From positions 145,256-209,255 of the forward strand of contig RBZT01000588.1 of the NCBI GenBank assembly GCA_003693705.1: a DNA stretch of 64,000 bases, in the 5' to 3' direction. Both the position numbers and the translations under genes were made by a program. The notes beneath the pieces are model-generated. The model made no database searches, was not told the DNA's origin, and was given only the letters and a program-made list of their open reading frames with translations. Of the stretch, positions 16,739 to 62,066 are shown in pieces. Source of the stretch: Polymyxa betae (Eukaryota > Endomyxa > Phytomyxea > Plasmodiophorida > Plasmodiophoridae). The stretch's first letter is position 1. The number at the start of each line of letters is the position of its first letter.

Positions 16739-17060
16739 AGCGTACGTGACTGGCGGAAAGTTTCTTGGAATCTGTGTCATAAAAATGTAAAATTTGCAGG
16801 GAACGCTTTGTCTGGCGATGGTATGTCACTTAGGAAGTTTTCGCTCCTACATGTAAGCAATGCTGCGAATTGCAATGTTTGAGGTCGAACATCAGTAAAA
16901 CCGAAGAGATTCATCGTGAATGCAACCTGAACCAATTCTTGTTGATTCGTCTAAGAAATATAACCGAATAAAGCGTCGAAGGTTTGAGTCACTATTTTAG
17001 ATGTTACAACTTCCGGTTTCCTCGTGAACCTCAAATCCAAATAATCAGTGAAGTATCTAG

Positions 17061-20000
17061 ATGCCTCCTGGCTTTAGCAATGGAGCGGGTGCTTCATCCT
17101 CTCGGCCCCGCCGACGTCGTCGATTGCGAAATTACAACGATTCTTCACAAACTCAGCAGGCTCGATTCGGTAAGATACGCAAAATGCACATTCGTTTGCT
17201 CATTCGTCGCAGAGCAAACTTCTGATCAGCAACGCTTAAAAACAGGTCCATCTGCGTGGGAAAACGAACCGACGCAATCCAATCCTCCGAAAGAGCAAGA
17301 ATCTGCTCAACGGCAACCTGAAGCTTGGCAGAGCACAGCAAGAGATGATCCCAAAGATTCGAAACGTTCACTGGAAAAGAAACCTGCCCAAGAACCCCAG
17401 GTTGGACAGTCAAACGAAGCAGCGCCACAAGACCGTCAGATGAAGCGCTGGTGGCACTGGCCAGTGGACGACGGCAATGACATTGATATTGGTGACGATG
17501 AACCGGACCGGGAGAATGGCCGTCAAGCAGAGCCAATTCAACCTGAATCGGAGAGATCAGGAAAGGACGTGCCCAATTCAATGCCGGACAATCGTACGGG
17601 CGACAACATGGCGCCGGAGAACAATAGCAGCGACAGGGAACCGGCGATAGCCAACGGCACAGCCAAGCCGGCTCCAGCAGGCGATAATGATTGCAATGTA
17701 GTTGAGTCGGCGGAAGCATCGCCAGGCGCTCAAGATCATTCTAACGCCGGCGACAATCAGGGTAAGATCTACGAATGGCTTTTTTGCTGGCTGATACGTC
17801 GCAGATCAAACTCCCGATCAGCAAAGCATTTTCAGAAACGACCCTACACAGCTCAATCCTTCGAAAGAGCAAAAATCTGCCGAACGGCCATCCCGTGCCT
17901 GGCGGAGACCAGCATCAAACAATAAGCCTGTAGGCCCCGATCGTTCGCAGAGACAGACGCCTGTACAGGAATCACAGGTTGGGCAGTCAGTGCCTTCAAA
18001 TGAAATAGCGCCAGAGGAGCGTCCAAAGAAGCGATGGTGGCAGTGGTCTGACGATGACGACAATCCAGTTGATTTTGACGGCAACGATTTGGATTCCAAT
18101 CGGGACAGCTACCGACGAGACGATTCTAATGAACGTGGACCAGCAAAGGATGCCTCGGATAATTCAGATCGGCGATCCGTTCCTTTGAATCTATCAGGCA
18201 AAGACATTTCGGATGTAACGCCGGTGATTGACAAAATGACGCCGAAGAGTAACAACAGCAACGGCAAGGAATCGCCGACGACGACGATGAATGGTACTGT
18301 TGAACCGACTATAGCTGCAAGCGTCGAACGGCGAGCATCTCCACAGGGCATCGGAAATGATTCTGACGCCGTCGACAATCAAGGTCCAATGCAGATCTTT
18401 TGAATACTGTTCTGATTGTTAAAGTTTAATTACAGATCGGGCTGACCAAAAGTCATCTCCAGCAAGAGATGAACCTGCAAGCTTCACTCCTTCACAAGAT
18501 CAGGCTCCTGTACAGAAACCCCAAACTGGGCAGTCTGCAGTGTCAAACGAGGAAAAGCCACAAGACCGTCAGAATAAGGGCTGGTGGAATTGGTCGGCGG
18601 ATGACGACAACGACGCAGGTTCCAATCCGGACAACGACCGCCGTTCTAAGCCAGTTGAAGCTGAGCCAAAGACTAGCGCCCCAAATCCTCCGAATCTGCG
18701 AGCCGTGCCTGTGAATCCATCAGAAGACACCCCAGATGCAACGCCGGTGGATCTTTCTGAACACGATATGACCCCGGAAAATGTCAACAACGGCAAGAAA
18801 CCGACAACGGTCAATGGTACTACAAAGCCAGCTCTAGCAGGCGATGATGACCCAAATGTAATGGAGTCGACGGATCGCACGCAACGGGCACCGCAAAACG
18901 CTCAAGATCTTTCGAACGCCGGGGAAGGTCCGATTCAGTCCTTCAGAAACTTTATTTCTAACACTGAGGTTGATTATCAGATCAGGCGAAACCAGACTCA
19001 CCAGGTGGATTCAATCTATGGAATTTGTTCGGGGTGATTGCCGATGACGAAGACGATCAAGACGAACAACAGCCTCAAGCCGAGCGGAATCTGGGGTCTG
19101 ATGTCGCTGACGATGCCGGCAGCATTCCATCCCAGACAGGACCCGATCCTTCTCCTGTTGATGACGCTCCCCAGTCTAACGACAGCAACAACGCGATTGC
19201 CGATGACGAAGACGAGCAAGACAAACAACAGCCTCAAGCCGAGCGGAATCTGGGGTCTGATGTCGCTGACGATGCCGGCAGCATTCCATCCCAGACAGGA
19301 CCCCATCCTTCTCCTGTTGATAACGCTCCCCAGTCTAAAGACAGCAACAACGCGAGCCCTACCTGGGACCAAGACAATGATGATAATGATGATTCTGTAA
19401 ACGGTGGCCGCGCCCCTCCTGAAAGCCTTCCTTTCGCTCCAATAGCGCCCAGTTCGACTATCGACTCCGGTCGACGTCAGCAGCAGCCCAGATCTCGTCG
19501 TGACCGCCAGAGGCCTAAGAAGAAATGGAGCCAGCATCAGTGGATACCATTTGATTCGGAAGATGAACGAGCAGCGGATGCTGATGCCCCGGAATCGCCC
19601 CCAACCTCGAATGCACCACAAGCCAGCGACTCACCTATTGACCAATCTGATCAAGACAAGGCTTCTCCGAATCCAGATCGCAATCGGTCTCAAACTGGCA
19701 CCGCAATTCAGGATAATGGTAACTGCAAATGTCGTATCAATTATGGATGCAAATATCTCACCCAAAATTAGATGTAAGGGCGGCTTCTGATCACAATAAT
19801 CAACGACGAGATTTTGAGCAATCACGAGATCCAGCGAATGTAGACCCATCTAGCAATGCATCCCCGAGACAACCGATCATGGCGCCTTCCAATGACACGA
19901 CATCAATCGCACCCAGTGATCCATTCTCGAGAGATTCGATAGCGTCGACATCCGACTCCAGGCCATCGCCAGTCATCCGAGAACCTGAACGTCAGATCCC

Positions 20001-39763: not shown

Positions 39764-41293
39764 TTAAACCGGATCTTCTTCGTCGCTCAGTGATCCGCTC
39801 GTTCTTCTGATATCCGGAGGCTCAATCTGAAGTGGAGTCGCGTCATCTCGACATTCGAGATCGGGTGGATCGAGTTGGGGCCCATACAGCTCAACTAATG
39901 CTTGCTTCGTCCACTCTTCAATGGCCATCATCGCATGAGACAGATTTCCGGCTGTATCTGATGTAGAATCTTCAATAGCTAGCAGTCTGCATAACTGCTC
40001 TCTGGTTGCATCCAACAGTGAAGAAATTTGTTCACGCTCTTCTTCCAGCATGTCTAATTCTCGTGTTTGCTCCTCGATGCTGTGCGATAAACCCATTGCC
40101 ACAGTTGACGATGCTTTCGTGTTCCATGGATTTCGCCCGTCGTCATATCTTGTCAAGGCCATCATTTCGTCTGACATCTTTTTTCTCTGTAATGATAGTT
40201 CTCGTACCTCTTCGAACTGTAGGATATTCTGTTCTTCATGCATTGCAAACCATTCGCACAGAGCATCGATATCGCCGTCCATGCCGATATCTTCGATGAT
40301 GAGCTTCCAGTCCTGTTCGCGCTTCTTTAGCCATGCTATTGCTGACTCAATCTTGATGGAATCGATAGCATTACTCCAGGTACAGTGCGCCCAGATTTTG
40401 CATATTCGGTCGATTTCAGAAGCTTGCACTACTTCGGTAACTACTTTGGCCAGGTCTTTCTTCTTTGGACGTCGCCACTTCGGCTGATCACCGGATCGGA
40501 ATTGCCGAAGACGTTCGTCAATAGCACTCTTTTCGGCAACTATAGCCATTATATGGCTCCACTCCTGGTGACATAGTATTTCCAACTTCTCGCTGCTTGT
40601 TACCAGATTCGTCAATGTGCATTGCGACTCCGCTTCTTCACTTTCAATCCGGTTAATATTAGAGAACAATGAGGAGATTTTGTTACGTAGTTCAACCTGA
40701 GCGGAGCCTTTGGCATGAAACCGATGGCGTAATATTTGGTTACTCTGAGATAAATCCAACAGGTCGACTTTCAACTGCTTCACTGCGCTTTGAATTGTAC
40801 TAAGTTTCTTGTTAGCGATTGACAATTGCGATTCAAGCGAGCACGTTCTTTGGAATTTATGCTGCTCGTTAGATCTAAACTTGCCATAATGGTGATCAGA
40901 TTGCATCAGCTCTGCGATTTCCTGGTCCAAATCTATTATTTGTGATTGCAGTTGCTGCAGAGTCCGATTCATCCGCTTGGTGTCGAACTTGACGTGGTCT
41001 TCCAGCTCCAAAAGCGAAGCAGCCCATTCACTTGAATAACTTCCTCGGATTGATTTGTTAACATTATCGACGTTTCTGATAATGTCCTTCTCCATTCCCT
41101 CAATATACTCATTTTTTTCGTGAATTTTCGAGCGTAAACCATTCTCCCGGGCTAAGCCTTTTGCAGTTGCGCTTCTATGAGCCTGGACCTTATGCAACGT
41201 TCTTGAGAGGGCATGCAAATCAATCGTTGCATTTTGGATGATATCTTTCGATGAATAGAACGGAGCCGCCCCAGGGAGAAGACTTGGCAGCAT
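39764..41293 (-). CDS. long coiled-coil protein, ODA docking complex (CCDC114/63)-like
   Basis: A 510-residue intronless stretch beginning at the first ATG (MLPSLLPGAAPFYSSKD) before continuous heptads. The frame is open for a further 112 codons upstream, but that part looks non-coding and overlaps the LSM12 promoter. Coiled coil includes LEDHVKFDTKRMNRTLQQLQ and FHAKGSAQVELRNKISSLF. The block DIDALCEWFAMHEEQNILQF followed by heptads parallels the DLD.LV..F...E..NFALF signature of CCDC114/CCDC63. The tail is acidic and ends RTSGSLSDEEDPV. It is probably an axonemal docking or related coiled coil; an upstream exon may be missing. Confidence 0.5.
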   Translation of the reverse strand: MLPSLLPGAAPFYSSKDIIQNATIDLHALSRTLHKVQAHRSATAKGLARENGLRSKIHEKNEYIEGMEKDIIRNVDNVNKSIRGSYSSEWAASLLELEDHVKFDTKRMNRTLQQLQSQIIDLDQEIAELMQSDHHYGKFRSNEQHKFQRTCSLESQLSIANKKLSTIQSAVKQLKVDLLDLSQSNQILRHRFHAKGSAQVELRNKISSLFSNINRIESEEAESQCTLTNLVTSSEKLEILCHQEWSHIMAIVAEKSAIDERLRQFRSGDQPKWRRPKKKDLAKVVTEVVQASEIDRICKIWAHCTWSNAIDSIKIESAIAWLKKREQDWKLIIEDIGMDGDIDALCEWFAMHEEQNILQFEEVRELSLQRKKMSDEMMALTRYDDGRNPWNTKASSTVAMGLSHSIEEQTRELDMLEEEREQISSLLDATREQLCRLLAIEDSTSDTAGNLSHAMMAIEEWTKQALVELYGPQLDPPDLECRDDATPLQIEPPDIRRTSGSLSDEEDPV

Positions 41294-41686
41294 GCCATGA
41301 ACGACGAGGTAAATATCTACCGCGAACAACTTGGTCGGTCGGTACCATAACGGAGATGCGATCTTTTTACAAATTGCTGTTTGGCAAGGAGGAAAATTTA
41401 ATTGTGAGAACTGAGGTGAATGATGGACCCATGGTCTGTAAATGGCCTGCTTCGTTGGAAGATTTGATATACAGCAGGGGTCATGGTGCCAGATGGTGGC
41501 CGCCTCGTTTATTATCGTTACAGCCTTGCATGTATGTAATGGTGCCATCATGCCATCCGTGTCATGGCCAGAACGAATCATATTGCGTGTTGCGTCGTTT
41601 GAATCGGCGCCGGCTTCCCTGAGTTGCAATCTCTCGCCTCGTATCGCCGCCGCACGCCGCCGGCCGCTCGCGGTCGTATCTGCATC

Positions 41687-42507
41687 ATGGCGACAGGCTA
41701 TAATCGGCCTCCGACGTCACCCCAGTTTCCACCGCTGCCATCGTCGCGATCGCAATCGGCAACGACTGTCGGTGGTGTAATTGGCCCTACGACCTCCTAC
41801 AGGCGTGCTGTCACTGCTGTTCCTGATAATCCCAATTTTTCACTCCTAGAGAATCTTCCAGGAAAGTTCGTGACATTGACTCGTTCAGAGCCCTTTTCTT
41901 GTGAAGTCTCCGGTCGCGTTCTTTTCGGAGATACTTCATATGGTGAATTAGAAAATGAATTCGTTGCCCGTTTATTAACCCGCGTCCTAAGGAGTGATTG
42001 GCATTGTTGACCAGTCGAATGATCAGCTGTGCATCTTTCAAACGCAGTCGCTTGACGATTTGAAAATCTTGGATCAACCCCGCCAGCCTTGGTCGCGTGA
42101 AGAGAATACTGGTATATCTGTTATTTTTGAAGGCATATCAGTTCATTGGCTTGACAGCATTGGGTTTAACTTCGGATCCGGAAGTTCAAAAGTATCGCGA
42201 GAATAGAAATCTTGAAATCCGTCGCGAAATTGCTGCAAAAATCGGCCCAGAAGGCACCAGCCCCACTGTGCAGAATTTATTTGATTCCTTGTCGAAAACC
42301 TTATCCTGCGCTTGGAAAGGCAACGACATTTTGATCCATGATGTTCGTATCCATCCTCCTTATCGTCCCGAAAATTGCATTGGCTCTAACCGAGTTTCAC
42401 TGAGCCGTATCCAGAAAATTGTAATGTTTCCATGTGAATTGTCCCATTATGTATTTAGCCAGATTTAGGTTGCTGCTGAATGGAAGAAAATTGACGAATC
42501 TCCATAA
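41687..42507 (+). CDS. LSM12: LSM12-like protein
   Basis: Four exons with short introns. The LSm half contains PGKFVTLTRSEPFSCEVSGR and, after a 50-nt intron, VIGIVDQSNDQLCIFQ. The anticodon-binding-domain (AD) half contains LFDSLSKTLSCAWKGNDILI, then HDVRIHPPYRPENCIG and SLSRIQKIV. The VRI.PPY..ENC motif and L..+RKIV end are the LSM12 AD signature. An N-terminal disordered Ser/Pro extension (PTSPQFPPLPSSRSQS) precedes it. LSM12 proteins associate with ataxin-2-type RNP complexes and in animals bind NAADP. It is divergently oriented with the coiled-coil gene at 39764-41293. Confidence 0.85.
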
Positions 42508-47269: not shown

Positions 47270-48176
47270 AACCAACTGCTATTTATTCAGTAAAACTCAG
47301 CGAATTTTAATCTATAATAACATCGCTTACCAATATTGATATGCGTATCGTACCGATTTATCTTTTTATTAACAATAGTAAATAAAAGTTTTTTCTTTTT
47401 ACTCTCGATTTCATGACTGTTTGGATTGCTTCTTGTCAATCTTGTGTGCATTTGAATTGGGTTTTATAAAAAAGCCGCAAAGCAACCGAATTCAACACTA
47501 CAGAGTCTGGATATCTTTACCAGAACATTCTGTTAGAACTGCATTCTCACACAATTTGCCTATCTGGTCTGGTTTGGTGACAAATTTTCGGTGGTGGCCA
47601 TTGAAGCCAAGCAACCCTACTGGAGCCAAGCCAAACAAGCTGGAATCAAATGCATAAATGGCGTCTCATAACGAGCTCAATTCTCATTCACGAGATAGTC
47701 AACTTTGAAATAGGATAAAAAACGTTGATGCCTTCCACATCAGAACGCCAGCCAAGACTTGAGAGGCAAAACGCAAGAGCCTATGAACAGATTGCTGCCA
47801 TAGTGGCGAAGGCTTCAACGAAGAACAGAGATCATGGTTATTAAGGAACCGGTTCGTAACGCCTACACTCCCCTGACCCTAATTAAACCCGCCTACACAC
47901 CCTGACCCTAATTAAACCCGCCTACACACCCCTGACCCGAATTAAACCAAATGACAAAAGGTCAAACGGCTACTCTCTAGGGGCCCTTCGTCCATGTAGT
48001 CAGGTCAACTCCGTGTGTGTGACAGACAGTGGGCGCGGCCTCCCATCCATTACCACTCTTGTTCATCTCTGTGTACTCCTGAACACATTCATCCCGATCA
48101 TATCGGCGAACATCAACTAATCACAGCCATTCGGCGTTCGAAATCGGCGACCCGATCTACCTCGGTGTATTAACCC
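47270..48176. other. intergenic region with tandem repeat and a tiny ORF
   Basis: About 900 bp between two plus-strand genes. A 38-codon ATG frame at 47728-47844 (MPSTSERQPRLERQNARAYE at its start) is basic and helical, and could be a micropeptide or a first exon whose donor is lost in the following repeats. An exon-like frame near 47533-47667 (FAYLVWFGDKFSVVAIEAK) is preceded by an AG but has no partner exon and may be chance. Confidence 0.35.
47861..47949. repeat. three-copy approximately 30-bp tandem repeat
   Basis: Units begin at 47861, 47891 and 47920 (30, 29 and 30 bp). Each is GCCTACAC(A/T)CCCTGACCC followed by (T/G)AATTAAACC, differing by single substitutions and one indel. The units contain CCCTAA-like cores but are not perfect telomere repeats. 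They lie in the intergenic region upstream of the ABCB10-like gene. Confidence 0.85.
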
Positions 48177-50092
48177 ATGTCAACAGCGGTTCCGATCGAC
48201 TTGGGCGAGCCGCTTCTGGCTCAGAGTCGAAAAAAGAAACAGCCGCTAACGCTGAGGAGGCTGTTGAAACAATCGTATCCCGAGCGATGGCTCTTGTTTC
48301 TTGCTAGTATTGCGCTGTTCGTGTCAACTATCACGTCCTTAGCTGTACCAATATTTATTGGGCGTGTGGTTGACGAGTTAGTCAAGATGTCACGTGGTGA
48401 AGTGTCGAGGTCTGAAGCCAGATTTACCATTAATGAGACCATTCTTGAACTGGTCCTGGTTGTTTCTGCTGGCGGTGTATTCGCATTAATGAGAGGATAT
48501 CTATTCACGCTTTCTGGGGAGCGGATTGTCGCTCGGATTCGGAAGCAGCTCTTCCAGAGCTGTATACGGCAAGACATAGCCATGTTCGACAAGACGAGAA
48601 CTGTATGACTCAAACGGATTTATTTTCGCTGAATTTTATTTAAATAATCGTTCAGGGTGAGCTTGTCAGCCGATTAGCCTCGGACACAAGCGTCTTGAAT
48701 AATGCCATCACGAGCAATCTCAGTAAAGCGCTTCAGATGTTTGCCACCGTCAGCTTAGGATTAGGTACGTAAATATAGGCGTACCTGTTTACTGGCTCTT
48801 ATCCAGTCTTAGTATATCTGTTCAAACTTTCAGTCCAGCTGTCATTGCTGATGATGTCTGTTATTCCCGCTGTCACCATAGTTGGCAGAATATACGGTCG
48901 CTATGTCCGATCGCTATCGAGGCAAACTCAGGATGCTCTGGCGCGTGCGTCGGAAGTTGCTGATGAGTCGTTTTCCAACATTCGAACTGTCAGGGCTTTT
49001 TCGAACGAGCAGTATCAGGCCGCTATTTATAACAAGCGAATCGACGAGACGTATGAACTCGGTGCTCGGGTCGCTTTATTATTTGGTTATTTCGTGGGGT
49101 TTATGGCAACTGTAGCTCCTCTATCAACAGTTTTCATATTATGGTCTGGAGCTATGCTCGTATTGAACCAGACGTCGCTAACAGTTGGTCTGCTGACAAG
49201 CTTCTTGCTTTTAACAGTAACCGTTGGGAAATCTGTTGCCGGCATATCCGGGCTGATATCAAACGTTTATAAAGCGATGGGTGCTAATGCTAAAGTTTTC
49301 GAACTGATTGATCGCCAGGAGCGAATATCTCTTAGCGGTGGAGTTGAACCAGAGAATTTTGTCGGCAATATTCGTCTACAAAATGTGGTTTTTACTTATC
49401 CGCAGCGTCCCGACACGGCTGTTTTAAATGGTCTTAATATTGAATTCCAGTCGGGCAAAATGACAGCTCTTATTGGCCCTAGCGGCGGCGGCAAATCGAC
49501 TATATTTGCTTTGGTCGAACGGTTTTATGATCCATCATCTGGACGTGTCACTTTGGATGGGCAAGACATTCGCGGTATCAACCTGTCCTGGTTACATAGA
49601 AAGATTGGTCTGGTATCTCAAGAACCCGTTTTGTTTGCGTGTTCCATTCGAGATAATATTGCTTTTGGAATAGAAAACGCTTCCATGGAAGACATTATAA
49701 AAGCAGCAACAGCAGCTAATGCTCATGATTTCATCATGAGTTTCGATAAAGGTTATGATACATTTGTTGGAGAACGTGGTCTTCATCTGTCTGGCGGCCA
49801 GAAACAGAGAATTGCTATTGCAAGGGCTGTTTTATTAGACCCCAAGATTCTCTTGCTGGATGAGGCTACTTCAAGTCTAGATGCAGAAAGCGAATATGTC
49901 GTGCAAGATGCTCTAGATAAGCTAATGAAAGGGCGTACTGTCGTCGTCATCGCACATCGGTTATCAACGGTTCGAGATGCTAATCTTGTAGCTGTCATTG
50001 ATCAAGGTCGTGTTATTGAGCAAGGAACACATGCTTCATTATTAGAACATAATGGCATATACGCTCATCTGGTTCGAAGGCAGCTCCAGTGA
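48177..50092 (+). CDS. ABCB10: ABCB10/ABCB8-type ABC half-transporter
   Basis: Three exons. The membrane domain has LLFLASIALFVSTITSLAVP, an approximately 30-residue loop, VLVVSAGGVFALMRGY and GELVSRLASDTSVL after a 53-nt intron. The intracellular loop EVADESFSNIRTVRAFSNEQ is typical of B-family exporters. The nucleotide-binding domain has Walker A IGPSGGGKSTIF, Q-loop LVSQEPVLF, signature HLSGGQKQRIAIA, Walker B KILLLDEATSSLD and H-loop VVVIAHRLSTV; all catalytic residues are intact. It forms a homodimer, in mitochondria for ABCB10 and ABCB8, though the N-terminus here (MSTAVPIDLGEPLLAQSRKK) is not a clear presequence, so a vacuolar location is possible. Confidence 0.9.
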
Positions 50093-56864: not shown

Positions 56865-58421
56865 TCAATTGAGATCAAACAAGTCGTCGTCGTCGTCATC
56901 ATAGTCCAGAAATCGAGAGTCGAAAGAAGTGAACCCGAAGGAATCTACAGACCCGCCTGACAGGCCCCGTTGCCCATAACCAGAACCGACCTCGCTTACA
57001 GAGGTTTTAGACAACCCAGTTCCAATACCATATGAACCAACTCCAAGATTGCCCATAGAGGTTGCAGACAGCCCAGTTCCGACACCAGATAAACCTATTC
57101 CGGCATTGCTCTTAGAGGTTCCAGATAAACCAGTACCGACTCCAGATAAACCGCCAACATTGTTCATTGAGGTTGCAGATAAGCCAGTTGCGCCACCAGA
57201 GAGACCGGCTCCAACATTGGTTATAGAGTCTCTGGATAACCCAGTTCCGATGTTGCTCATAGAATTAACTCCTCCATAGCCTCCAGAAAATCCACCCCCG
57301 AGGCCAAACGTGTTCGAGCCCAGTTGCTGTCCTCCAGTTCCATAAAAGTTCGACGACGATCCCGAAAAGACACCACCAATCCTGTATGGTTGCGACTTCA
57401 CCGAGTAGATACCTCCTTGTCCCAATGAACTACTGCTGCTTACACCAAATCCAGTTCCACCATAACCTCCGACTCCGAAAATTTTGGAGCTGGGGCCCTT
57501 TGCTCCAAGGATGTTTCCACCACGTAAATACGAATTTGACGAGAATGTGATGCCGCTAGTGGGATGGTGTCCGTATAATTTCAGAGAGCCAGCGCCGCCT
57601 GGATAACCACCGCCGTATTTTCCTGCCGCTATGTGAATATGGCTTTTCGTGAATGAGCTGGGACCAGAGCGCTTCGAGGAGGCTTGATTCCCAAACGACG
57701 AGAATGCCTTGCGTCCAGACTTTCCGTTCTTATGAGCGCTAGTTTTCACACGGGCAGAGTTGGATTGGTTTTTCGATGCAGCATTGGCTGCTCCTTGGTC
57801 ATGTAGGTTGAGCTTATTCTGTGCTGTACGTGATCGAGCCTTCAGACCCTTGTTTCTAGCAGCAGCCTTTCGGGCTTCGGAGTCCTTGGACGATGACTTC
57901 GCGGAGGCAGTGTTGTCTTCAAAGCTGTTTGTAACATCGCTGGCTTTCTTGGAGTAAATATTGATGTTCTTGGCCCGGCTGTACCTTTTAGCATGCTTTT
58001 TCGAAGCCTGAGCGTTTCGTTCCTTCTTTTTGGCAGAAGCCGAACCTGCTGCCTTGTTATACAGATTCTTACTAGCGTCATTGCTATCTAATGCCTTGCT
58101 CAGTTTCTTGTTGTGATTCTTATTCGCGGATGCCGCCTTCAAATGTTTCTTCGCAGCTGCGTCCTTGTTCGCTCCTTGTGAATACTGATCATACCCCAAG
58201 TTATCAACATTGTTCTTTTTTAAGGAATAGCCATTGTTTGAGCTGCCTTTGTAAGCCTTGATATCCATGGCATCGTTATTGTCATTGAAGTTTCCATCAC
58301 CATAACCTTCATGGTGGCCATGATGGTGGCGATGGCCTCCATCAACATGGCCCGCCAACGCCACCATCGCCAGAAGCGTCATGGCAAAACAAAGAGTCAT
58401 CAGAGACATTGTAATTTTCAT
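56865..58421 (-). CDS. secreted Lys/Ser to Gly-rich repeat protein (paralogue A), 518 aa
   Basis: Intronless. A signal peptide (residues 1-23, MSLMTLCFAMTLLAMVALAG core) is followed by a His-rich patch (GHRHHHGHHEGYG), then a Lys/Ser/Ala/Asn-rich region to about residue 250. This contains the shared block RYSRAKNINIYSKKASDVTN at 146-165. The C-terminal half is Gly/Ser/Tyr-rich with five to six degenerate repeats of GVGTGLSATSMGN-type units. The end is acidic, DYDDDDDDLFDLN. Composition resembles extracellular structural proteins (silk-, cuticle- or adhesive-like) rather than enzymes. The plus-strand gene at 61098 shares the central block and layout. I know of no named family. Confidence 0.7.
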   Translation of the reverse strand: MKITMSLMTLCFAMTLLAMVALAGHVDGGHRHHHGHHEGYGDGNFNDNNDAMDIKAYKGSSNNGYSLKKNNVDNLGYDQYSQGANKDAAAKKHLKAASANKNHNKKLSKALDSNDASKNLYNKAAGSASAKKKERNAQASKKHAKRYSRAKNINIYSKKASDVTNSFEDNTASAKSSSKDSEARKAAARNKGLKARSRTAQNKLNLHDQGAANAASKNQSNSARVKTSAHKNGKSGRKAFSSFGNQASSKRSGPSSFTKSHIHIAAGKYGGGYPGGAGSLKLYGHHPTSGITFSSNSYLRGGNILGAKGPSSKIFGVGGYGGTGFGVSSSSSLGQGGIYSVKSQPYRIGGVFSGSSSNFYGTGGQQLGSNTFGLGGGFSGGYGGVNSMSNIGTGLSRDSITNVGAGLSGGATGLSATSMNNVGGLSGVGTGLSGTSKSNAGIGLSGVGTGLSATSMGNLGVGSYGIGTGLSKTSVSEVGSGYGQRGLSGGSVDSFGFTSFDSRFLDYDDDDDDLFDLN

Positions 58422-58733
58422 TCAGGCTGAATACAGTAAGTGTGAATTGTCGATTTTTTGGTGGGATAGCTCCGGTTCGTTGCCCGCTCGCCTCCGGTTC
58501 CGAGCACGAACCTTCCTCTCATGCCGAAGTTGCCACATGTTTTGCAAGCATTTCCCCTGAGCCTACATCAAGCCAGCTGACCGACCAAATCGCCAATCTG
58601 GAACTAGTGGCTCTTAGGGAAGCGACTGCCGGTACCCATCTAACCTTAGTTTTACGTTTTTAATGTGCTAACTGTAACGTAAGAGTATTGCTCTCCTGTC
58701 AAATGGAAAATCTCACTCTATGCTCTATGCTTT

Positions 58734-59945
58734 CTATTTACTAAGTTTGTCGAGATTAGCCATCTCTTGGGAGCATTTCAATGAAAGGGCCTCGAACCTC
58801 CTCACATGAGCAGAGAACGGCCTGGTTGGACAGCTACTGGTCGCCACATCGGCATCGCTCCCCCATGGGCTCTTGAGCTCCGGTCTTGGTGTATACATCT
58901 TTGATCTAAACGGTGGCGCTTCAAGTATGTTTGGAGTGTATGCTGGAGGATTAATATTCACTTCCGACCGACCCGGAACCAGCTTCATGCTAGCGAGCTG
59001 AGGATCTTCGGGAATTGCTCGGATCTGAAGCGGTATCGGCTGCGGTTCCATTATTCTCGGTACTAAAGAGCCATTCTGAACCATGTGCGATCTGGCAGTT
59101 CGTTGAAGAGGAACCTGTTTGAGCTCGGATAGCTCTAGATTGCGCTTGTGCCAATCGGTGAGCTTGTCGTGGTCGGGATGGTCCCAGACTGTCAAGTTCG
59201 GAGTGGATCGATGCAGCGGCCGACAACGAGTCGATAATTTAGTGGGAGATGCCGGCCTGGCAATGGCCATTAAAGTCGCTAATCGAGCCGCCTCTGAATA
59301 ACATTCTTTTGAAGGCTCGTCTCGATCAAGAAATGGCTCTTGAAACTCGACGACAAGTTCGCGAAAACCGTTCTCGCTACCACGCTCACAATTGATTAGT
59401 AATCGTTGGCGACGAGCGTTGACATCAACACCAAAACTTGTCAGCGAATTGGCGACCTCAGCAGCGGTACGCAAACCAAGATGGAGATCTTTGAACAAAT
59501 TTCGTAACAGGCCTCGTGAAACTTGGGTTGTGTTTGCCCGTAGTTTGCTGTTTTCAGAATCCCATTTATCTCCAAAGATCATATATTGACGAGTATGATC
59601 GAATGAAGTCGATGCAGGCAATGCCACAGGGTTCGATGATATTAAGTCGAAATTATATCTGTCACCATCTGGAATCGTCAACGCATGGAGAAGCCTAGCC
59701 AACGACAAAGGCGGCTTCCTCGCCGTTGTGTAGTATGCATTTGTCAGATGGATCCCTTGGGCTTTCAATGCAGCGCTTAGCTTGGCTGTAGTTATCTCGC
59801 CCAAGTCGTATTTGGAGAAGAGGTCGACGATGATTGCCCGCTTTGAATGGACATTGAGCTTCAATTCGAGCCCGGATTGATGGCAGAACTGGCCAGAAAT
59901 CCCATCGTGACCTACATCAGCCGGTTCGGTAACAGCCATTTGCAT
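58734..59945 (-). CDS. orphan protein, 403 aa
   Basis: A single intronless frame from ATG CAA ATG at 59945. The N-terminal 170 residues look folded: KRAIIVDLFSKYDLGEITTA, LLRNLFKDLHLGLRTAAEV and SFGVDVNARRQRLLINCERG, two related helix-turn repeats in which a LF..L..G.IT.AE..  pattern occurs twice. This hints at an internally duplicated helical domain, vaguely EF-hand-like or flagellar-associated. The C-terminal half is disordered, proline-rich (PLQIRAIPEDPQL, YTPNILEAPPFRSKMYTPRP). Family unknown. It sits between the two secreted paralogues. Confidence 0.55.
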   Translation of the reverse strand: MQMAVTEPADVGHDGISGQFCHQSGLELKLNVHSKRAIIVDLFSKYDLGEITTAKLSAALKAQGIHLTNAYYTTARKPPLSLARLLHALTIPDGDRYNFDLISSNPVALPASTSFDHTRQYMIFGDKWDSENSKLRANTTQVSRGLLRNLFKDLHLGLRTAAEVANSLTSFGVDVNARRQRLLINCERGSENGFRELVVEFQEPFLDRDEPSKECYSEAARLATLMAIARPASPTKLSTRCRPLHRSTPNLTVWDHPDHDKLTDWHKRNLELSELKQVPLQRTARSHMVQNGSLVPRIMEPQPIPLQIRAIPEDPQLASMKLVPGRSEVNINPPAYTPNILEAPPFRSKMYTPRPELKSPWGSDADVATSSCPTRPFSAHVRRFEALSLKCSQEMANLDKLSK

Positions 59946-60102
59946 TCTTGTCAGACGTACATTTGATCGATCTGGTCAAGGTACAGAAGAAACAAGCATT
60001 GTATGGAGACAAAAATTATAACTAAGAACCTTTCAAAAATTAAAATTCAGATTAAGACAGCATACAAAAGACTGGTTATTCTTGGACGGTCAGTAAAGAG
60101 GT

Positions 60103-60727
60103 TTACGACCGATCAACGTCCATTTTATCTTCAGATGTTGTAGGAACATTATCCACGATATCGTCTTTGCGGTTAGACAGACATGTCAATGAATGAAATA
60201 ACAACGACATATCCTTCCTTGTTGAATCCATACGGCGCTGTAGCTGATCATGTTTTTCATTCAGCAATTGGATTTCTGCTTCAAGCGTTGATATGTTATC
60301 CGCCGATTCCCCACGGCTTGGCAGCTGATTGTAAGCTTGGGCCAGAAGTCGATATTGATCGTAACGCCCTTTGGTATCATATGCCTCTTTCAACTCTTCT
60401 CTTAGCACTTGGATCTCCTTGGTTACGGAATCGATCAGGGCCGTATATTTATCATGTTTTTCAGCATACGTTGCGCGCTCTCGCTTGGCGGTTTCAATGA
60501 TTGTATGTGTCTGTGAAATATCGAAAATTAACGTATCCAATTCCGCCAAGAACTCGTCGTTTTTCTCGATGATATCCGGCGACAATAATCTCCTAGCGAG
60601 GGACAGCACCAGATGATCGCGAGCGACGAACCTTTCGGCCGTAATCTGATCTGCGAACGCATCAGGAACCCCGACAACAACACAGCAAGCTTCGACAACG
60701 ACCTGATTCAGACAGTGAAGTCGCCAT
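60103..60727 (-). CDS. THOC7: THO complex subunit 7-like
   Basis: Two exons with a 51-nt intron near the start: MATSLSES joins DQITAERFVARDHLVLSLAR. The body is coiled coil (RERATYAEKHDKYTALIDSV) with YDQYRLLAQAYNQLPSRGES, equivalent to THOC7's YD.LA..I...P.R element, then NISTLEAEIQLLNEKHDQLQ, then MSLLFHSLTCL and an acidic/Asp end (TSEDKMDVDRS). THO couples transcription to mRNA export. The longer unspliced frame starts with GTG and is rejected. Confidence 0.65.
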
Positions 60728-61011
60728 TGGAGACCTTCTAATACAAAATGAGCGTATATGCGCACTTAAACATCTGCTCTTTCAAATTCGATTCGTGTTA
60801 TTATCCTTTTAAAATTAAGATAAACGTCTCAAACGTCTTTATTGCTTGGCTTTACATTGCTAGGTAATTGGGTAGGCTTGCCGAAATAGTGGTAGGTCGG
60901 TGGGCCGGTCAGCTGGCGGCGACGGATGCCGGCGGTGAACTTCGGACCGGGTGGTCGGGCAGGAGATTATGGCATTCGGAACGTATATCGGCCCGAATCG
61001 GAACCGATCGT

Positions 61012-61017
61012 TATAAA
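61012..61017 (+). promoter_or_regulatory. candidate TATA box
   Basis: TATAAA about 80 bp upstream of the ATG of the secreted Ala-rich gene. Most genes in the window lack a clear TATA box, so it may mark strong or regulated expression. A match this short can also be chance. Confidence 0.35.
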
Positions 61018-61097
61018 GCCGACGTTTTACGTAGGTCTGCTGCTCATTCCGATATTTGCTTGTCGACAGCAACAAAGAACCTGAACCATTGTCCAAG

Positions 61098-62066
61098 ATG
61101 CGTCTTTCCACAGTGACTTTGTTGCTCGTCGGGGTGGTCCTGGCGTTGAGCGCCATTCCAGCTGAAGCTGGTATTGGACTTGGACATGGTGTCAACAGCA
61201 TCCATGGGCATTCCGGCTCCGGATCCAGCAAGGCTGCCAATGAAAAAGCCGCCCTTGCTAATGCTGCCACCAAGAAGAACGCCGCTGCTTTGAACAGCAA
61301 CTTCGCCCAGTCTACAGCCGCCGCAGCCAAAAACGCTGCTGCCAAGAAGGCATCAAAGGCAGCTGCCGCATCCCAGGCCGTCAAGAAGCACATCAACAAG
61401 AACGCCGCCGCAGCCGCCGCGAAAAAGAGTGCCGCCAGCAAGGCTGCCGCTTCCAAGCTGGCCCAGCTGAAGAAGAAGGCAGCTGCCGCTTCTCGAGTTC
61501 GCACGGCCAAGTACAACCGCGCCAAGAACCTCAACATTTACTCGAAGAAGGCTACTGATGTCGTGAACAGCTTCGTCAACGAGGCCGCCACCGCGAAATC
61601 GGCTGCCGCTGCTGCCGCCAGGAAATCAGCTGCCGCCAAGGCCGCCGCCGTCAACTCCGCCAGGACCAAACGGGCCAACAACCTGAACGCCGCCAAGGCC
61701 GCTCGCAGCCAAGCAGCTTTCAAGTCGGCAGCTAACTCAGCTCATGTCAACTCGGCAGCCAAGAAGGCGGCCAAGAAGGCTCACAAGAACGCGTTCAACA
61801 CCAACTTCGCAGCAGCTAAGAAGGCTGCCAACAAGCGCGCTGCGTTCGCCAAGTTCCACAAGCACGGATTCGGAAAGACAGGATATGGTGCTCATTCTGG
61901 TGGCTGGGGAGGTCTAGGCAGCATGGGCTATGGCATCTGGAGCGGCGGTTACCCATCATCGGTAGGAGTATATGGACTTGGCCAAGGAATTGGTCATCTG
62001 GGATTCGGTGCTGGTAGCGTGGGCAGTTTGGGAGGAGTCGGCCTTGGATTCTCTTCCATGTATTAA
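61098..62066 (+). CDS. secreted Ala/Lys to Gly-rich protein (paralogue B), 322 aa
   Basis: Intronless and more GC-rich than its surroundings. Residues 1-24 are a signal peptide (TLLLVGVVLALSAIPAEAG). Residues 45-255 are very Ala/Lys-rich with Asn and Ser, predicted helical (KNAAAKKASKAAAASQAVKK). The block KYNRAKNLNIYSKKATDVVN at 138-157 is shared with paralogue A. Residues 256-322 are Gly/Tyr/Ser-rich (GGWGGLGSMGYGIWSGGYPS). The two-part plan, a charged helical segment then a glycine-rich tail, suggests a self-assembling extracellular coat, adhesive or cyst protein. A TATA-like box lies about 80 bp upstream. No known family assigned. Confidence 0.7.
   Translation: MRLSTVTLLLVGVVLALSAIPAEAGIGLGHGVNSIHGHSGSGSSKAANEKAALANAATKKNAAALNSNFAQSTAAAAKNAAAKKASKAAAASQAVKKHINKNAAAAAAKKSAASKAAASKLAQLKKKAAAASRVRTAKYNRAKNLNIYSKKATDVVNSFVNEAATAKSAAAAAARKSAAAKAAAVNSARTKRANNLNAAKAARSQAAFKSAANSAHVNSAAKKAAKKAHKNAFNTNFAAAKKAANKRAAFAKFHKHGFGKTGYGAHSGGWGGLGSMGYGIWSGGYPSSVGVYGLGQGIGHLGFGAGSVGSLGGVGLGFSSMY

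Follow-up and report, generated by a model that had tools for sequence, protein, structure and literature searches.

A small, apparently undescribed family of putatively secreted rod-and-tail proteins in Polymyxa betae

What kind of protein joins a long, charged, helix-forming half to a Gly-rich tail, and why would two such proteins share one short block of residues within low-complexity sequence? The question is raised by two genes, G1 and G2, in a 64,000-nucleotide stretch of Polymyxa betae DNA (GenBank assembly GCA_003693705.1, contig RBZT01000588.1, positions 145,256 to 209,255 of the forward strand; GC content 45%), the whole of which is called the window here. G1 and G2 are A and B of an earlier note written from this sequence alone, and G3 is an additional member from elsewhere in the genome; rod positions are in G2 numbering unless stated otherwise. 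The reading that we favour, with a rough probability of 0.48, is that these are secreted structural proteins in which helical hairpin rods carry unfolded Gly/Tyr tails, silk-like by convergence; the hairpin, the assembly and the biological role are what we infer. The features of the pair are as follows.

56865..58421, minus strand: G1 open reading frame, 518 amino acids, intact from ATG to stop; putatively secreted, Ser/Lys/Ala-rich rod with a long Gly/Ser-rich tail
58353..58421, minus strand: putative G1 signal peptide, residues 1-23 (ALA/GH), judged solely by its hydrophobic core and the -3,-1 rule
57648..58250, minus strand: G1 rod, residues 58-258, ungapped against G2 50-250 (gapless by MAFFT only over G2 66-230); from alignment, with AlphaFold2 helices at 75-153 and 160-246
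57921..57983, minus strand: G1 conserved block, residues 147-167, with the predicted helix break 154-159 (57945-57962) inside it; from alignment and AlphaFold2
56868..57626, minus strand: G1 Gly/Ser-rich tail, residues 266-518, with an acidic end; from composition
61098..62066, plus strand: G2 open reading frame, 322 amino acids, intact from ATG to stop; putatively secreted, Ala/Lys rod (net charge +44) with a short Gly tail
61098..61169, plus strand: putative G2 signal peptide, residues 1-24 (AEA/GI), judged solely by its hydrophobic core and the -3,-1 rule
61224..61862, plus strand: G2 rod, residues 43-255, with helices 43-144 and 151-255; AlphaFold2 prediction
61512..61574, plus strand: G2 conserved block, residues 139-159, with the predicted helix break 145-150 (61530-61547) inside it; from alignment and AlphaFold2
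61884..62063, plus strand: G2 Gly-rich tail, residues 263-322, 38% Gly and zero charged residues; from composition and pLDDT (predicted local distance difference test) of 32-39

A family of three proteins

The earlier note described two single-frame genes in opposite orientation about 2.7 kb apart, and this arrangement is correct: both frames are open and lie head to head, with start codons separated by 2,676 bases. Its two-part secreted design (signal-like start, charged half and Gly-rich tail) is likewise found in G1 and G2. Signal peptides were called from a hydrophobic core plus the small-x-small (-3,-1) rule and not by a trained predictor, and under this simple rule all three members have a signal-peptide-like start. 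Tail lengths are 60 residues in G2, 253 in G1 and 57 in G3, the G3 tail being 42% Gly and 18% Tyr with 10 Tyr residues, and the G1 tail contains a 57-base-pair (19-residue) tandem repeat at 57000-57248. Ala makes up 35% of the G2 rod, 38% of that of G3 and 15% of that of G1. N-glycosylation sequons number one in G1 and none in G2 or G3.

Protein searches of the genome itself (24.43 Mb in 541 contigs; queries G1, G2, G3 and a 48-residue segment around the block; best candidates only scored) recover G2 and G1 as mutual matches at E 4.9e-23 and 9.1e-23 and reveal one additional paralogue. This is G3 (contig C263, 654-1562), a single open frame of 302 amino acids that begins 653 bases from a contig end; its start is hydrophobic and it, too, carries a Gly tail. 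No fourth convincing member emerged from the four queries, that with G3 adding only chance-level matches (E 1.5 and 5.29). A short DNA pattern of the block start gave two false leads, L002 and L003, which by eye we take to be a chitin synthase and a CHD-type remodeller. A search for COX1 gave no match.

The shared block is present in both proteins of the pair, beginning at Tyr/Phe one residue away from the positions first given for it, and the proposal that it exceeds low-complexity drift is borne out by shuffling that preserved composition within every 20 residues (150 shuffles per pair). For G2-G1, ungapped alignment scores 276 at best, where the shuffles average 79.5 (standard deviation 10.5, maximum 112); G2-G3 scores 460 against a maximum of 184 and G1-G3 scores 226 against 115, so all observed scores lie far above every local-composition shuffle. 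Homology is not confined to the block, as had been supposed: 165 residues align without gaps in all three proteins and 244 in G2-G3. In the three-way MAFFT alignment, the gapless runs are 28-271 for G2-G3 and 66-230 for G2-G1, and the centre of the run common to all three falls at 148, in the middle of the predicted bend. Over the 201 ungapped columns 50-250, identities are 47% (G2-G3), 34% (G2-G1) and 25% (G1-G3), against 20, 13 and 12% expected from composition. With the block excluded, five of six arm comparisons score highest in the true register among 31 offsets, the exception being the G1-G3 right arm (0.17 against a maximum of 0.19).

Searches of Pfam, NCBIfam, PDB and a large protein database agree with the earlier suggestion that neither the block nor the proteins belong to a known family. 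Pfam and NCBIfam give no family at cut-off for G1, G2 or G3, and Pfam gives no match at E 1 for G1 or G2; the Gly/Tyr tail of G3 has a sub-threshold match to the Pfam keratin head PF16208 (E 0.011, 16.3 bits, cut-off 28.2), a resemblance to type II keratin heads by composition only, the keratin rod being absent from G3. PDB sequence searches give nothing beyond chance (lowest E 0.12 for G1, 0.79 for G2 and 0.15 for G3); the G2 matches, at E 0.79 and 0.9, are to the Skp/HLP-1 periplasmic chaperone, which G1 and G3 do not match. Skp has helical hairpin arms. Among 5.8 billion proteins, no match at E 0.01 was found for G2 (best 8000 candidates) or G1 (best 7992 candidates), and none at E 10 for G2 region 128-172 among 3179 scored candidates; these negatives hold for these searches only, as the G2 and G1 candidates were perhaps crowded by Ala-rich words and the eukaryote coverage of the database is not known. 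Foldseek with the G2 model returned zero PDB matches at E <=10 and one meaningless viral-library match (E 7.8), and none of the papers listed by literature searches described a protein of this design. On these comparisons, G1, G2 and G3 form a real, small family that is so far without match and apparently undescribed.

Codon use bears on the age of the family and on how its block was kept. At identical residues outside the block, the same codon is used no more often than by chance in the windows tested (lowest p 0.051); synonymous sites there look saturated, so the duplications would be old. Within the block, 12 of 14 codons are the same in G2 and G3, where 6.2 are expected (p 0.0003); the counts are 10 of 17 for G2-G1 (p 0.095) and 8 of 16 for G1-G3 (p 0.14). 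The G2-G3 excess suggests gene conversion or a constraint at the DNA level beside protein selection, and calls for caution in reading the block as kept by protein selection alone. It is also what would be expected if these were weakly constrained low-complexity genes whose likeness came from duplication and gene conversion of the block. Such an origin is very improbable, as the duplications look old and yet the rod has kept its frame, central length and register, and all three proteins retain the signal-like start and the tail.

The rod and its predicted bend

AlphaFold2 predicts two long helices of similar length in each rod, of 102 and 105 residues in G2 and of 79 and 87 in G1, and the breaks between them occupy equivalent aligned positions within one residue. 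The helices themselves are credible, and their relative placement is not fixed by the models. Mean helix propensity across G1, G2 and G3 has its minimum at centres 153-161, in the block or at its edge and some residues past the predicted break; the weakest single-protein windows are centred at 157 in G2 and 158 in G3. The block is thus most likely, on these predictions, the bend of a rod between two helices. The earlier note had proposed that it is a functional motif, possibly for assembly or processing. That the block is conserved stands, and it is better read as a bend than as a processing site, as dibasic sites are close in number to the composition expectation (2 against 1.9 in G1, 2 against 1.3 in G2 and 3 against 1.8 in G3).

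Whether the bend belongs to a hairpin was approached through mirror symmetry about centre 147.5, the middle of the AlphaFold2 loop in G2. G1 has 10 mirrored Ala-Ala pairs against 3.1 expected (p 0.00004), a value to be discounted because the mirror tests were exploratory and multiple (15 profiles in the scan plus 15 arm sets, after an earlier look), which weighs against the hairpin. None of 92 circular shifts equals this count, and its excess of 6.7 is above the highest value, 4.1, among 32 other centres. When 78 centres were scanned, the hinge (146-150.5) ranked first in 8 of 15 profiles, including Ala in G1 (permutation p 0.000) and unsmoothed conservation (0.072). Permutation at the hinge was significant for Ala in G1 (0/400), mean Ala (0.013), Lys/Arg in G3 (0.028) and the two smoothed profiles; it was not significant for Lys/Arg in G1, G2 or the mean profile, for small residues in any of four profiles, or for Ala in G2 and G3. 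Alanine mirror symmetry gives the hairpin moderate support, and the bend of the rod probably belongs to one.

Several further observations count against this interpretation. Both AlphaFold2 models were built from an input alignment of G1 and G2 only, and hence are not independent of each other; their confidence is low (mean pLDDT 64 for G2 and 48 for G1; predicted template modelling score, pTM, 0.25 and 0.21), which leaves hairpin versus bent rod undecided, and Foldseek returned no similar solved structure for the G2 model. The weakest helix window of G1 lies at 245, outside the block, which is itself among the worst 12 of that protein. Ala mirroring is not significant in G2 (19 pairs against 15.5, p 0.10) or G3 (16 against 14.5, p 0.34), where the test has low power because both are so Ala-rich, and when complete residue identity is scored, the mirrored arms match no better than by chance (p 0.49 in G2, 0.37 in G1 and 0.48 in G3). 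Identity at the rod ends is weak, and MAFFT places the length differences of G1, six residues on the left and one on the right, outside 66-230. There is no clear heptad period: the 3.4-3.8 peak over whole rods has p 0.51 in G1, 0.49 in G2 and 0.058 in G3.

Periodicity leads to the foremost alternative, in which the rods are single, non-pairing alpha helices that act as spacers about 30 nm long, bent or straight, and the block serves for binding or docking instead of being a turn. A heptad-range signal appears in right arms only (G3 p 0.002, G1 p 0.026). The strongest period in the mean profile of the three proteins, which are related to one another, is 4.68 (p 0.006), and Ala autocorrelation is above zero at lags 5, 9 and 14 and below zero at lags 2 and 7. 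An Ala/polar period near 4.67 is closer to single alanine-lysine helices of the AAAAK type than to a heptad coiled coil, and the low pTM of both models and the chance-level identity of mirrored arms fit such helices as well. Set against these are the alanine mirror symmetry of G1 and the low helix propensity of the block, and we regard unpaired helices as unlikely.

Assembly, possible role and known parallels

If the rods are hairpins, the region of about 200 residues that is rich in Ala/Lys (Ser/Lys/Ala in G1) would consist of two alpha helices joined by a short break in the block and folded back on each other into a hairpin of very roughly 12-15 nm. Arms that fold back in this way would account for a length and register that are kept and for a bend that is best conserved; a central length that stays fixed while low-complexity residues change likewise points to a constraint on geometry. 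Rods would then associate, perhaps across members, given the charge differences among G1, G2 and G3, and their unfolded Gly/Tyr tails would stick or become cross-linked, giving an extracellular coat, cyst-wall or adhesive material. Tyrosinase-domain matches occur on six contigs of the genome, which makes it probable that the organism has a tyrosine-oxidising enzyme. IFT57 matches on one contig and the chitin-synthase-like frame L002 fit a flagellated organism, and the zoospore and cyst context of the earlier note is plausible. The structural role put forward there (coat, adhesive or cyst wall) is, as an inference, the most plausible class. A bolder version is doubtful: that the three secreted proteins form a silk of their own, in which Ala/Lys hairpin rods, constant in length, and Gly/Tyr tails that vary co-assemble into a tyrosinase-hardened coat of the zoospore or cyst, independent of insect silks and fish antifreeze hairpins.

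The closest designs appear to be the aculeate silks and the antifreeze protein Maxi, neither of which shows up as a relative in the tests made, which did not compare their sequences directly. In the silk paralogues of honeybee and hornet, the middle of the protein is Ala-rich and helical over about 210 residues, with unstructured regions on either side (PMC12284834). In comparison, the predicted helical part of G2 is Ala-rich and spans 213 residues (43-255), and G3 matches by composition; G1 fits less well, with its low Ala content and shorter predicted helices. Bee silk forms an antiparallel four-chain tetramer with 24 heptads (PMC12284834), whereas here there is no clear heptad and a break in mid-rod suggests a hairpin. 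The present proteins also differ in being very Lys-rich, in their Gly-rich C-terminal tail and in their non-insect host. Kinship with silk finds no PDB match better than E 0.12 and no Pfam family, in searches that did not compare the silk sequences themselves directly. Maxi, a hyperactive type I antifreeze protein of flounders, has a signal peptide and a 195-residue Ala-rich helix that is folded in half, within an antiparallel homodimer, and shorter type I isoforms are built of 11-residue repeats (PMC9122973). Here the signal-like start is comparable, and a break near the middle of the rod is predicted, with support for folding back from the Ala mirror in G1 only; the three proteins are set apart by the lack of an 11-residue repeat, their Lys-richness and their Gly tail.

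Maxi (PMC9122973) is also a precedent for a stress-protective function, in which LEA-like or ice-binding proteins would be secreted to guard the cell surface. This is improbable here. Linker histone and LEA families are entries in Pfam, which gives no LEA or antifreeze match, and LEA group 3 11-mer repeats are seen neither as a Pfam match nor as a lag-11 signal (Ala autocorrelation -0.03). The 11-residue repeat of type I antifreeze proteins carries Thr, and Thr makes up 3-4% of the G2 and G3 rods. The surface is Lys-rich, and a Gly tail would be left unexplained by protection.

Charge itself suggests another function, namely that of secreted polycations that bind polyanions such as acidic polysaccharides, DNA or polyphosphate, or whose target is microbial membranes, the Gly tail serving as an anchor. 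Rod net charges of +44 (G2), +29 (G1) and +20 (G3) agree with it, and so does the PDB match of G3 to histone H2B.4, itself at chance level (E 0.15). The rods also hold acidic residues, 25 in G3 and 18 in G1, for which a pure polycation would have no use, and Pfam offers G1 and G2 no match and G3 nothing beyond the sub-threshold keratin head; no linker histone winged-helix domain is found there. Such a function is somewhat less probable than unpaired helices.

Extracellular structural proteins of early-diverging fungi seem to be little known. Should the hairpin model be true, these proteins would represent compact, helix-based materials that are short and have their bend built in, and would be a natural test case of low-complexity sequence holding an exact length and register. 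G1-G3 could also mark an attachment or encystment step of zoosporic fungi.

Upstream elements, gene origin and surroundings

Word comparison of the sequences upstream of G1 and G2 identifies two shared elements.

60906..60917, plus strand: CGGTCAGCTGGC, starting 192 nucleotides upstream of the G2 start
60998..61006, plus strand: TCGGAACCG, upstream of G2
58572..58583, minus strand: CGGTCAGCTGGC, starting 162 nucleotides upstream of the G1 start
58495..58503, minus strand: TCGGAACCG, upstream of G1

Order and orientation are alike in both genes, with TCGGAACCG following CGGTCAGCTGGC 68 (G1) or 80 (G2) bases on. The 12-mer CGGTCAGCTGGC occurs six times in the genome, against once for its reversed control, and the 9-mer TCGGAACCG once more in the window, at 48187. 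At the other four genomic 12-mer sites, TCGGAAC is absent within 200 bases, and of the open reading frames of at least 60 amino acids that start within 600 bases, none looks signal-peptide-like by eye. G3 has ATCGGAAC 36 bases before its start, and the 12-mer is absent there. These elements, which we count in favour of the structural reading, likely reflect shared control of G1 and G2, or else a remnant of their duplication.

The earlier note had taken the absence of introns to suggest a retrocopy origin, transfer or selection for fast expression. The coding frames do lack introns, which is no special trait here. Nine stop-to-stop frames of at least 300 amino acids occur in the window, of which seven are neither G1 nor G2, some being portions of larger genes; of 14 actin matches, 3 span nearly the entire profile in a single frame. 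That the genome is intron-dense was read from split domains such as the ABC transporter. A retrocopy origin is unsupported because all three members are single-frame and no intron-bearing parent was found, in searches that scored best candidates only and so are not proof. On a codon scale where actin-like use is positive, G2 lies at +0.15, G3 at 0.00 and G1 at -0.13, against -0.18 to -0.34 for eight ordinary frames, from a weak reference set. That set comprises two actins and L018, which by eye contains an intron and resembles mitochondrial EF-Tu, and nothing firm follows from it.

The stretch between G1 and G2 carries two further minus-strand frames: a THOC7 match and a single-frame open reading frame of 403 amino acids (58734-59945) without a Pfam match. 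Another single-frame open reading frame on the minus strand, at 39764-41716, encodes 650 amino acids, is coiled-coil rich by eye and likewise has no Pfam match. An acidic Trp motif recurs in successive frames at 16972-19037 (RWWHWPVDDG, RWWQWSDDDD, GWWNWSADDD), together with a 159-base-pair tandem repeat in two copies with 96% matches (19036-19355). At 47860-47948, a 29-base-pair unit is present three times; it contains CCCTGACCCTAATTAAACC, is somewhat telomere-like and lies inside the contig.

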